A DNA stretch of 64,000 nucleotides from Golubevia sp. BC0850. Its lineage: Eukaryota > Basidiomycota > Exobasidiomycetes > Golubeviales > Golubeviaceae. Location: positions 1 to 64,000 of the forward strand of contig JAAVVG010000044.1 in NCBI GenBank assembly GCA_012976225.1. Reading direction: 5' to 3'. Shown here in pieces: positions 7,192-13,177 of the stretch. Position 1 is the first letter of the stretch, and each line of letters begins with the position of its first letter. The notes below the pieces were generated by a model. That model worked only from the letters and a program-made list of their open reading frames with translations, searched no databases and had not been told where the DNA came from. The position numbers were made by a program, and so were the translations under genes.

Positions 7192-10100
7192 TCAATCCCT
7201 CATGAAAGCCAGTTTCTTCAACAGCTCCTCAGCCCTCTCCATCAAATCCGGACTACTAGCCGCAACCTTCAACAGAAGATCATTGGCCAAATGAGGATTT
7301 CCAACCAGCAAATTCTTCCCTCTGCTCTCTTCTTTCAGCTTTTCCAACTTTTGTCGTTTCCTGAGTAGACGTTCAGCTCTTTTTATAGAGATCTGTTCTT
7401 GAGACAGAGTTGAACCTTCCTTTGAATCCTTGTTGACCTGTAAATCATTTTGCGTCTCAACATCATCCTGTTCTTCGAGTTCGTCTTGATCCTCGAAAAT
7501 CAAATCTCCCATTTCAGATCTTGCAACTAGAAAGTAAGACTTAGCATAGAAGCCAATTGACAAAGGTTCTGGAGTAGATTGGGATCTTTCGACTAGATTG
7601 ACTAATCTACGATGCCATGAAATCGATGAAGCACATCCAGAGTTGCTATCACTGGTTTGAATTGAATTTGATTTTGCAGAATCTTCTTTTTCTATAATCT
7701 TGATGATTTTGGAAATGATGTCAACTTGTTCTGCTAGATTTGAGAGACAAGATAACATTCGCTGATAGGAAGAGATCGTCTCCTTTGGTCTGCAAGGAGA
7801 GTGAGAAAGACGTGAGAAGGAGATATGAGCAAGTGGAACGAAGTTGTCAAATGCACGACGTCGAAAGAGACGGGCTCACCTTCTCAACCTTTCGTAAGTG
7901 TCTGCGAGAGCGTTCCACATTCTAGAGTCGTAAGGTCTGAGAGAAGGCGAAAGTTGAGGTGGAAACGGGTCAAGAGTCAGTTAAGAGAGCCGTCTGATAG
8001 GAAAAGAAAGGAACCACCTCGAGCAACCAAATCTTCACGATACTGACCGAAGAGCAACAGCTCTCTGATGATAAAAGAGAGCATAGGTCCAAGCTTCATG
8101 AAGTTCGTAGATCTTTCCAAGACCACTCCAAGCTCTGAAATCTCCAGGATTGATTTCTGTTGAAAGGGCGGAAAGGGAGATCAGAAAATCAAAAATTCCT
8201 CAGTCTGTTTGTTCCCTTCTCTTTCTGCTTCAACCCAAGTCCAAAACTCACCAGCTCCCCTCCTATACATCTCCGCAGCAGCATGAGGATTCTTCAATTC
8301 CACATATTCATGACCCAGAAGAATCCAAGCTCCAGAATTCCCAGAATCCAATCTCAACGCTCTCTTAAAAGCCGCAATAGCTCTAATGTGATCTCCAATA
8401 CTTCCATAATAATTCCCAATGCAACAACAAACCTCAGTTGAATCCTTTCCGACTTCTGATAATCTATGAGCTAATTCTGCTAATTTAGCATGTTGATTGG
8501 ATACAAATAACGAATTTGAATAATCTGAGATCCCATCTAATCTCCAAGGATCTAGGGAGAGAGCTGATTCGAAGGCTAGTTGACAAGCTTCGTTCTCTGA
8601 GAGGGTAAGAAGAAGTGAAGGAGAGAGGAGGGTGATTAGAAAAGAAGAAATCAAATTGAGACCGGGAGAGGATAGAGACTGACCATTAGCTTTATAAAGA
8701 TGTTCCCCTTTTGCAACCATCAGATACGCGCTTCTAGGGAACATGTCGCACAGAGATTCGATTCTCTTCAAATGTGAGCCAACGTCGTTGATAGAACTTT
8801 CTCTGGTGTTGTACTCGATAAAGAAGGAGGTCATGAAAGAATCTGGAAGCAGAGGTACGATTTCTTCTAATTCAGTCGTTTCACCATCTAAAGTTGCACT
8901 TAATTCTTTCCAGGCTCCCCAATTGTAAGGCAAGATTTGAACACTTCGAATAAAGCAATCCATAGCTTCTACTCTTTTGTGGAGTTTGCGAAAGATGATC
9001 CCTTTCCTTAAAAGAGAGGGATTTCGAGAGGAGGTTAGATTTCAGAGATGAGAGGTTGTCTGATAGATTCCAGCGACTCACAGATAAAGGAGGAATGGAT
9101 CTGAAGGATCTACTAGATCTGATAGGAGAGGTATTAGATTAGGGCTGGCTGCTGGAAGTTTCCCTGTGAGACCTGAGGAAGGAGAGAAAGAGAGTAGCTT
9201 TCTGATCAGATCCATTCTCCCTACAAACATGCTACACCGCCATTCGAGAACTCATTCGAGAACTTACGGGCTGAATTCAAGCTATGTTCTTCAATCCGAC
9301 GTTCAGAGACCTAGGAGAATAACGAGGAGAGGGAGTCAGAGCTTATCTCTTCTCTATCCAGCACCTCCTCTACTATCTATTCACCCCTTGATTTCCCTAC
9401 AAGCCCAAGCCATTATGTAGGGTCTGCATATTTCTAACGACACTCACCAAGAACCTAGCATACAACCTCAAGAAGGTAGCTTTCGGATTCAAAGAATTCA
9501 AAGATTCCAAAAGAGCTGAACACCTCTCCAACTGATGTGAATCGAAATGACTCTTAGCCAAAGTGAAGACGTCTTCTTCTTCCTCGTTCAATTCTTGAGC
9601 AGACGGCTGACTAGAACCAGCAGCTGAGTTCTCGTCATCTCTTTGAGAGCTATCAGCAGAAGGAGCGAAATGAACGTGATTTGAGCCACCCCCAACTGCA
9701 CTCATGTCTTGATTTGAATCGATTGAACTGTCTGGATCGAGGTTCTTGTTATATTGAGAATTTGAAACGTGAATTAGAGGAGAAGGAGGAGGGAATCTAC
9801 CAGAAGTAGAGGTTGAAGTTGAATGATCATTTGGATGTAAAGATTGATTTGAACCTAAAGCTGGAGTTGAGTGATTAGGCGCTGTAAGTGGATGAACGAA
9901 TCTGGAAAGGCTTGATTGAGTTTGAAGTTGATGGTTTCTAGAATTCTTGCGTAAAGGAGTTGAGAGATAACTTGGATTGAAGGAAGAGGTGATAGTTGCT
10001 GCTTCATCTCGCTGCTGACGCTGACGATTGGATGAAGTTGTTGATCTTGGTACGCAGTTGAGTAGTTCCAATGACCTTTGAGTTTCAATTCAGGTGAAAG

Positions 10101-10576: not shown

Positions 10577-13177
10577 CTAGACTCCAATGACTGCAATATC
10601 AGATTCCCAATGAGCTTCATCGCAGTTTAGACTTTCATTGGTCTTTGAATCAGCAACAGCCACAGCGAAATCTGTTTCCGAAGATCCTAGAGCGATCATG
10701 GGATGATGCCAAGTTCCAGCAGTGTATCTGATGTTAGGGATTTGAGGTGGCAGAGGAGATGGTTTTAAGGAGAGAAGATTGAGAATGGTGGGCAGCGAAA
10801 GAAAAAAGAGGGAAGGGGTGAGAACTCACGAGATGCCTTGTTCAGTGGTACAGTAGAAGGCAGCAAGAGTGTTGAGATCCGGTTTGTCATCTGATAGAGA
10901 GAGTGTGAATGGGTTCAAGTCAGCATAAGCAGCTTCCTACTTCAGCAAATCAAACCTCCTAACTCTTCTGAACTCACCCAGACCATTCTTAGCCACAACA
11001 ACCAGATAACCCTCATGACCACTCCCTTTAGTCGGAGTCATAGGAACGAAAACCTGATCACTAAATCTATGTCTCTCCAACATTCTAACATGAAAAGGCA
11101 ATCCACTCTTCCCAACTCCCTGACATTTATAAAGGTGAAAATTGGTAACAGCCTGGTCCTCGGGTTTGAAAAGATTTCTACAGCTAGCTAGATTTGAGTA
11201 CTTCTTTGCAGTTCCTAGATTGACAACTTTAAAAGGAGCTGTATGGTTTGAAGGAGAAGCTATGACTTGACCATAGGGAGCGAAACTTTCTGCAGATAGA
11301 GAGTTGGCGACGTGAGTGACTCCAGTAGAGTTTGAAGAGCTTCCTAGAAGAGAAGAGAAAGCTGCTGAGGCGGCTCCAGTTACGGCTTGAAAGGCTGAGG
11401 GTTCTGTTGGTAGAGCTTTGTCTGAAGATCCTGGGATGTCGATTGAAGGTAACTCTCCAGAGAAATTGGCTAGGGTTGAAGACCTTCTTCCTACGAGACG
11501 AATACGTTTGATCCCTCCATCCTGAAAATTAAAAAAAGAAAAAAAAACGGAAGGATAGAGTCTCAGAATTGGTCCCATTCAAGGTTTTGGTGAAAGGTCT
11601 TGAAACTCACAGGGTGCATAGTCAACTTGACGTGACTGAAGCTTTTCTTCTCCTGCTCCAATCTGAAAAAGTGCTGCTTCCCAGCACTGAGCTTGGATCG
11701 GCCAAGAATCGAAGTCCACTCGGCACTGTCTGGAGGTAATTGGCCATCGAAGTTGGTGGCGTGTAGCTCACAACTTTCTGGGAAGTTTCCTAGAAAATGA
11801 GCTGTGTCTACTTCGACGTAGGAGAGCATTCCTGGTTCACCGCTGCGGAGCAGGGAGAAGAAAATGAAAGCTCTATCAGTTCGGAAAACCAGAAAACAAG
11901 GAGAATTGGCAGGAAAAGCCAAGCAACTCACAGCTTGATAACGACCCAATCTTTGTGACCTTTGGCTCTCGAACGTTTGGTTTCCCAACCATCTCCCATA
12001 TCTTTACCTCGACCAGGTAGAATCAAATTAGCTCCCACTCCGAAATGTTGATCACTTGTGCTGTGAGATCGAGGAGGGGAAGTAGGTCAGAAAAAAAGGA
12101 CAGACGAAGTTTTCCACCTTCGATTCTCCCTCAAATTCATTCAGATCTGCTTCTTCACCCTTTGAACTCACAAAACCACTCTCCCTCCATTCATGACATG
12201 GGCCAAATCTAAAACGTTCAATCTTTCGTCACTTGAAGAGGTTTGGATTTCAGAAACTCCCATTCCTAGAGGTGGAGCAGGAACAGTTCCATAGACTCTA
12301 AATCTAGCAATTCCTCCATCTGGAATCATGAGTAGCTTGATATGAGTAATGGGTTTTGAAGAAGGGGAATTTAAGGAATAGAGGTGACGAGCTGATGGGT
12401 TACAAGGAAGACGTGGGAGAAGAGAAGACCACTAGTAGATAGCAGATGAACGACGAATGAGTAAAAGACCTGCTAAGAATCAGTATCAGAGAACTGCTAA
12501 CTTCATTTCATTCCCAAGCTACTCTTCCAAGCCCCCATCTGATTGCGACATCCTTCTCAAGCTTGTTAACTCACTCTCTCATCTGCTTCCTCCAATCCTT
12601 TCCCTATCTTCTGCTCCTCAGCAGATAAACTCATTCCGAAAACTTCAATTTCTGGGGCTTCATTCCCATTGAAGTTAGCAGTATCGATATCGAATCCTGA
12701 AACGATTCCTCCAGCTTTTGGTCCTAATCTTAAGATCACCCAGTCATAAGTCGGATTATGACGACGAGTTTCCCATCCATCGAACAGAGCTCCTTTTGGT
12801 CCGAATTGTCTGTGAAGAGGAAATTTGTTCGGGACAAGGGTAACAAAAGAGTCAGGATTGAAGAAGGAGGGAAGAAGAAACCTTATCTTTCAAGCTGCGA
12901 GCTTGAGTTCCTTTCCTCCCAACCAAAGCTTCTGAGCCATTAAGAGAGAGATACATCTAGGCTGAAGATGTGAATGTTGATGATAGTGAGTGTGACTGAC
13001 TTACCCTTTCATACTAGGAGCAGCCCCAACTTTCAAAAGATCAGTTGCAGGTGCGAACCATTCATCTGAACAAGATAGAATCGTTCCTCCTAAAGAAACA
13101 CTGGATAATTCTGTTAGAGTCCCTAAGGTTGATGGGAAATCTTCATAGGAGATGCTTTTGAAGTTAGAAGAGGTCAT
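10577..13177 (-). CDS. DAL2/DAL3: Bifunctional allantoicase - ureidoglycolate lyase fusion
   Basis: Allantoicase splits allantoate to ureidoglycolate and urea; ureidoglycolate lyase then releases glyoxylate and urea. Eight exons join in phase (10577-10727, 10830-10890, 10978-11521, 11611-11842, 11932-12060, 12172-12431, 12575-12809, 13005-13177), giving 594 aa. Residues 1 to about 358 carry both allantoicase repeats: [34 protein letters not shown] and [17 protein letters not shown], then [34 protein letters not shown] and [15 protein letters not shown] linker of about 50 residues (roughly 359-410, Ser/Ala-rich) leads to ureidoglycolate lyase: [29 protein letters not shown] and [12 protein letters not shown]. 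The end of domain one, the linker and the start of domain two lie in one uninterrupted exon, so the fusion is real in the DNA. In S. cerevisiae these are separate genes, DAL2 and DAL3. The start ATG at 13177 is chosen over an upstream in-frame one because it begins the conserved part. Confidence 0.95.

Follow-up and report, generated by a model that had tools for sequence, protein, structure and literature searches.

The window, by which we mean the whole analysed stretch of 64,000 nt (positions 1 to 64,000 of the forward strand of contig JAAVVG010000044.1, Golubevia sp. BC0850), carries on its minus strand a gene that spans positions 10577-13177, with the ATG at 13177 and the stop codon ending at 10577. 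Eight exons, joined in frame with matching phases, make up a coding sequence of 1785 nt (594 codons and a stop). Exon junctions were placed by eye on the three-frame translation and then verified by splicing in frame. The seven introns are 195, 143, 111, 89, 89, 87 and 102 nt long; one of them has the donor GTAAGT, the other six have GTGAGT, and the acceptor is AG in all seven. The coordinates, the length of 594 aa and the eight exons in phase given in a preliminary description of this DNA were all exact. The exons are as follows:

13005..13177, minus strand: exon 1, start of allantoicase (ATG at 13177, donor GTAAGT, phase 2)
12575..12809, minus strand: exon 2, allantoicase repeat 1 (spliced model; PF03561 match in frame)
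12172..12431, minus strand: exon 3, allantoicase repeat 1 (end) and repeat 2 (start) (spliced model; PF03561 match)
11932..12060, minus strand: exon 4, allantoicase repeat 2 (spliced model; PF03561 match)
11611..11842, minus strand: exon 5, allantoicase repeat 2 (spliced model; PF03561 match)
10978..11521, minus strand: exon 6, the joint, with the last allantoicase residues, a 59-residue linker and most of the lyase (stop count per frame)
10830..10890, minus strand: exon 7, lyase (spliced model; PF04115 match)
10577..10727, minus strand: exon 8, end of the lyase with the WHHP motif, and the stop codon (spliced model; PF04115 match)

An additional exon between exons 1 and 2 (at ∼12956-12882) was considered on the three-frame translation, by eye, and dropped. 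Joined to exon 1 through either of the two acceptors tried, it meets a stop before the next donor, and its sole open frame is incompatible with the phases of exons 1 and 2. Exon 1 joined straight to position 12809 gives a gap-free alignment with solved allantoicases at this place. A search with Rfam at gathering thresholds returned no matches in the window.

The spliced product has the domains of two enzymes in one open polypeptide, allantoicase at the N terminus and ureidoglycolate lyase at the C terminus. Pfam-A identified PF03561 (Allantoicase) in two stretches with 314.2 bits against a cut-off of 27, the best stretch covering residues 30-186, and a single PF04115 (Ureidogly_lyase) at residues 415-591 with 143 bits (cut-off 23). 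The PF04115 domain is complete, as model positions 6-161 of 162 are covered. The NCBIfam allantoicase model TIGR02961 also scored above its cut-off (342.6 vs 277.9 bits); all eight ureidoglycolate lyase models listed from NCBIfam, a collection of bacterial and archaeal models, stayed below theirs (the best had 92.1 vs 230 bits).

Similarity to solved structures divides the protein in the same way. Residues 24-354 align with 1sg3 and 1o59, which we take to be yeast allantoicase structures; the lyase half aligns with chains named ureidoglycolate hydrolase, namely 2bdr (residues 416-587) and 1yqc, 1xsr and 1xsq (residues 418-568). Ureidoglycolate lyase presumably belongs to the RmlC-like cupin fold class. 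Between the two domains lies a linker (residues 356-414) in which 14 of the 59 residues are Ser and 8 are Ala; such a Ser/Ala-rich segment is probably flexible. The preliminary description had a linker of about 50 residues: the linker exists, and its length is to be corrected to 59, given that allantoicase is aligned up to residues 354-355 and the lyase from residue 415.

We also considered whether alternative RNAs could yield the two enzymes as separate proteins, either in addition to the fusion or in its place. The joint between the domains falls within exon 6 (11521-10978, 544 nt), whose coding frame is free of stops; its two remaining frames contain 8 and 11. Retention of any single one of the seven introns would truncate the protein (after 58, 138, 223, 266, 358, 537 or 545 residues). 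The case of intron 5 is the one that could produce two proteins, as its retention stops the protein after residue 358, near the point where allantoicase ends, and the lyase frame is opened by an in-frame ATG that lies within this intron, at 11578; this ATG is usable only by an RNA that retains part of intron 5. However, both ends of intron 5 have consensus sequences and its excision restores the conserved allantoicase end DGGIKRIR. On the spliced mRNA, no methionine occurs between residues 341 and 490, so translation of a complete lyase could not begin internally. Further, for the corresponding fusion of Cryptococcus neoformans, a cDNA that covers the complete ORF was obtained, according to the available text of Lee et al. 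(PMC3646786). Production of two separate enzymes is thus highly improbable, and the gene model predicts a single mRNA spanning both domains. With both Pfam families in one spliced frame and the joint in one uninterrupted exon, the fusion proposed in the preliminary description stands, as does its argument that this is not read-through between neighbours, of which the single in-frame gene model gives no sign.

Fusions of this kind are known. The available text of Lee et al. (2013, PMC3646786) describes DAL2,3,3 of C. neoformans (CNAG_01108) as an 813-aa fusion of allantoicase with ureidoglycolate hydrolase that has two tandem Dal3 parts; its deletion led to the expected nitrogen phenotype. There the fusion is stated to occur in Basidiomycota only and not to have been observed in Ascomycota or Zygomycota, and substrate channelling is proposed, although the enzyme could not be adequately tested by those authors. 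Three things were therefore already published in 2013 (PMC3646786): the fusion as such, with cDNA, the statement that it is confined to Basidiomycota, and the proposal of channelling. The fusion seen here is not new in kind. The same source, in its available text, confirms the contrast drawn in the preliminary description with Saccharomyces cerevisiae, where the same two steps are carried out by products of separate genes, DAL2 and DAL3, located inside the DAL cluster (PMC3646786).

The Golubevia protein shares with Cryptococcus DAL2,3,3, as far as the available text of that paper goes, the order of allantoicase and then lyase in one polypeptide, the unclustered arrangement of pathway genes and the urease route. 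It differs in having one lyase domain in 594 aa, whereas the 813-aa Cryptococcus protein has two in tandem. Other reports contribute little in the parts available. A table row on Xanthophyllomyces dendrorhous g1143 (‘allantoicase, putative’) names an RmlC-like cupin domain (PMC11274570), and so a fusion is suggested there by this one row. In a review, CNAG_01108 is given just as allantoicase DAL2 (PMC5488104), and the available parts of PMC9244630, PMC6320678 and PMC6547517 mention allantoicase and no such fusion. A search of limited depth in the open-licence literature found no further descriptions of an allantoicase-lyase fusion.

For comparison, we surveyed 77 bacterial stretches, which gave 66 loci with a relative of allantoicase. 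Within the stretch fetched, 42 of the 66 have a lyase frame on the same strand downstream. This rate is biased, because the lyase part supplied two of the six patterns used in the search, and contig ends truncate some of the 24 loci that lack a lyase hit. The two frames were adjoining or overlapping in 14 of these 42 loci and separated by 778-1023 nt in the other 28. Allantoicase and lyase in one open frame were found at none of the 66 loci; in the sampled bacteria the two genes are neighbours but unfused. In one locus inspected by eye (L022), allantoicase is followed by an OHCU-decarboxylase-like frame, then by a frame that ends in YRGS and finally by the lyase; YRGS is given as the signature of HIU hydrolase in the available text of PMC3646786.

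Two bacterial loci have fusions of another composition. In L015 (3998-5569) and L067 (2858-5458), allantoicase is in one frame with OHCU decarboxylase (PF09349); here too a partner from purine breakdown is attached to allantoicase, but it is OHCU decarboxylase instead of the lyase. Upstream, the stop-to-stop frame of L067 takes in a piece of an amidohydrolase as well, which may be an adjacent gene that runs into it. The three stretches picked up by the search patterns among IMG/VR viral contigs contained no relatives.

The bacterial sequences were used to assess conservation in both halves of the protein, with a column counted as strongly conserved if at least 95% of the relatives were identical (63 allantoicases, after three of the 66 were dropped as too short, and all 42 lyases). 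The allantoicase half keeps 68 of 79 such columns. The lyase half keeps 25 of 40 and differs in 15, a lower conservation that may reflect divergence between fungi and bacteria; the comparison set consists of bacterial sequences. Residues kept in the lyase include E492, R493, H494, Q499, F501, P503, W551 and H552, and the motifs ERH, QxFxP and WHHP are retained. Among the differences is P495R, at a position occupied by P in all 42 bacterial sequences; those at 572 and 573 depend on the alignment, as phmmer puts the Asp one residue earlier.

The 15 altered columns, together with the scores of the bacterial NCBIfam lyase models below cut-off, might be taken to mean that the lyase half is inactive and has another role, with ureidoglycolate decaying spontaneously or being processed by another enzyme. 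Several observations make this a poor explanation. The PF04115 domain is complete and scores far above its cut-off, the three lyase motifs are present and, among the matches listed as best candidates from six-frame translation of the genome (25.8 Mb), there is no second match to PF04115, nor one to PF03561. Since no other match to either family appears among those listed, the urea-releasing route from allantoate would depend, in this assembly, on the fusion protein. We consider loss of lyase activity very unlikely, if slightly less so than separate products from alternative RNAs. Lyase activity is what the motifs and the single-copy status point to, and catalysis of two steps by one protein is, judging from the sequence, very likely.

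Our main reading, to which we assign a probability of about 0.92, is then that the gene is a DAL2-DAL3 fusion of the basidiomycete kind encoding one protein, with an N-terminal allantoicase and a C-terminal ureidoglycolate lyase. Both domains would be active: the allantoicase half would convert allantoate to urea and ureidoglycolate, and the lyase half would convert ureidoglycolate to glyoxylate and urea. As for nomenclature, in the available text of Percudani et al. DAL3/allA are said to have been wrongly assigned to an ammonia-releasing reaction and to belong to the urea-releasing lyase (PMC3793230).

Most other steps from urate to ammonia were matched on contigs other than that of the fusion gene. 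Matches were found to uricase (contig C22) and urease (C5), along with candidates for a transthyretin-like HIU hydrolase (C63) and for OHCU decarboxylase (C23), the latter weak at 24.4 bits against a cut-off of 24. The Dal1-type allantoinase model TIGR03178 had a single match of 36.6 bits, below cut-off, in a long frame that reads, by eye, like the dihydroorotase-like part and the aspartate transcarbamylase of a Ura2-type protein. An allantoinase of the TIGR03178 kind was not recognised in the genome, in a search that scored exons separately and that a Dal1-type gene with small exons could escape. A PuuE-like candidate exists on C33 (435102-436211, L079-L081) in three pieces with 164.1, 156.7 and 23.2 bits to TIGR03212, each below the cut-off of 424.6 bits, which is set for the whole protein; one exon among them has a match to the polysaccharide deacetylase family as well. 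In this respect Golubevia, with the PuuE-like candidate and no recognised TIGR03178 allantoinase, differs from Cryptococcus, which has Dal1 according to the available text of PMC3646786.

Neighbours of the fusion gene were looked for with Pfam in 10 ORFs, out of 17 listed that reach 200 aa or more; most exons fall among the shorter ORFs. Matches were to APC8/TPR (two ORFs), a RidA-like frame and an amino acid permease; one ORF has a SNF2 region below the Pfam cut-off, and five of the 10 had no match. No purine genes were seen beside the fusion gene among the 10 ORFs scanned, a set in which a neighbour with smaller exons could be missed. The downstream neighbour (8181-10089, minus strand) looks like anaphase-promoting complex subunit APC8/Cdc23, with two ORFs matching PF04049.

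Elsewhere in the genome, on contig C7 (716073-717221, plus strand; positions 333-1977 of locus L086), we observed matches to histidine phosphatase (PF00300) and thymidylate synthase (PF00303). The frame at 703-1977 of this locus has the second half of PF00300 together with PF00303 and, by eye, no methionine between them; the first half of PF00300 is in the frame just before. The locus looks like another enzyme fusion, with an intron possible between the domains; no paper on a fusion of phosphatase and thymidylate synthase was found in the open-licence literature. The best PDB match of a thymidylate synthase exon of this genome is 2aaz, presumably the Cryptococcus enzyme (248.2 bits vs 233.6 for the next). 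A PAL exon scored higher with plant-type PDB entries (126.9 bits) than with 1t6j (107.1 bits), presumably a basidiomycete yeast enzyme. On these matches a basidiomycete host is likely, with the PAL exon lending it no support.

What the cell would gain from joining the two enzymes is a further matter. The benefit would be a fixed 1:1 supply and the proximity of both activities, and the intermediate might in addition be handed over along a protected path. In its strict form, direct channelling would have the allantoicase site deliver ureidoglycolate to that of the lyase on such a path without leak or decay. Two consecutive steps in one chain fit this idea, which Lee et al. put forward for the Cryptococcus fusion, as the available text has it (PMC3646786). 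The linker, at 59 residues with many Ser and Ala, suggests a tether and not a tunnel. In bacteria, all 66 loci have separate enzymes or no lyase in the stretch, and as none of them fuses the two, the pathway does not require channelling. Physical channelling is possible, without support from the sequence, and we hold it to be unlikely. We are just as doubtful of a composite proposal, in which the linker and the pairing pass ureidoglycolate on before it decays or leaks and, at the same time, the single-lyase form is the original one, from which an internal duplication later produced the double lyase of Cryptococcus.

The basidiomycete DAL2-DAL3 fusion in Golubevia leaves the picture of the purine breakdown pathway unchanged. 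For a fusion known since 2013, it provides a further genome, one in which the lyase is present in a single copy. With two domains, its enzyme is a simpler subject than the Cryptococcus protein for asking whether being fused accelerates or protects the conversion of allantoate to glyoxylate.
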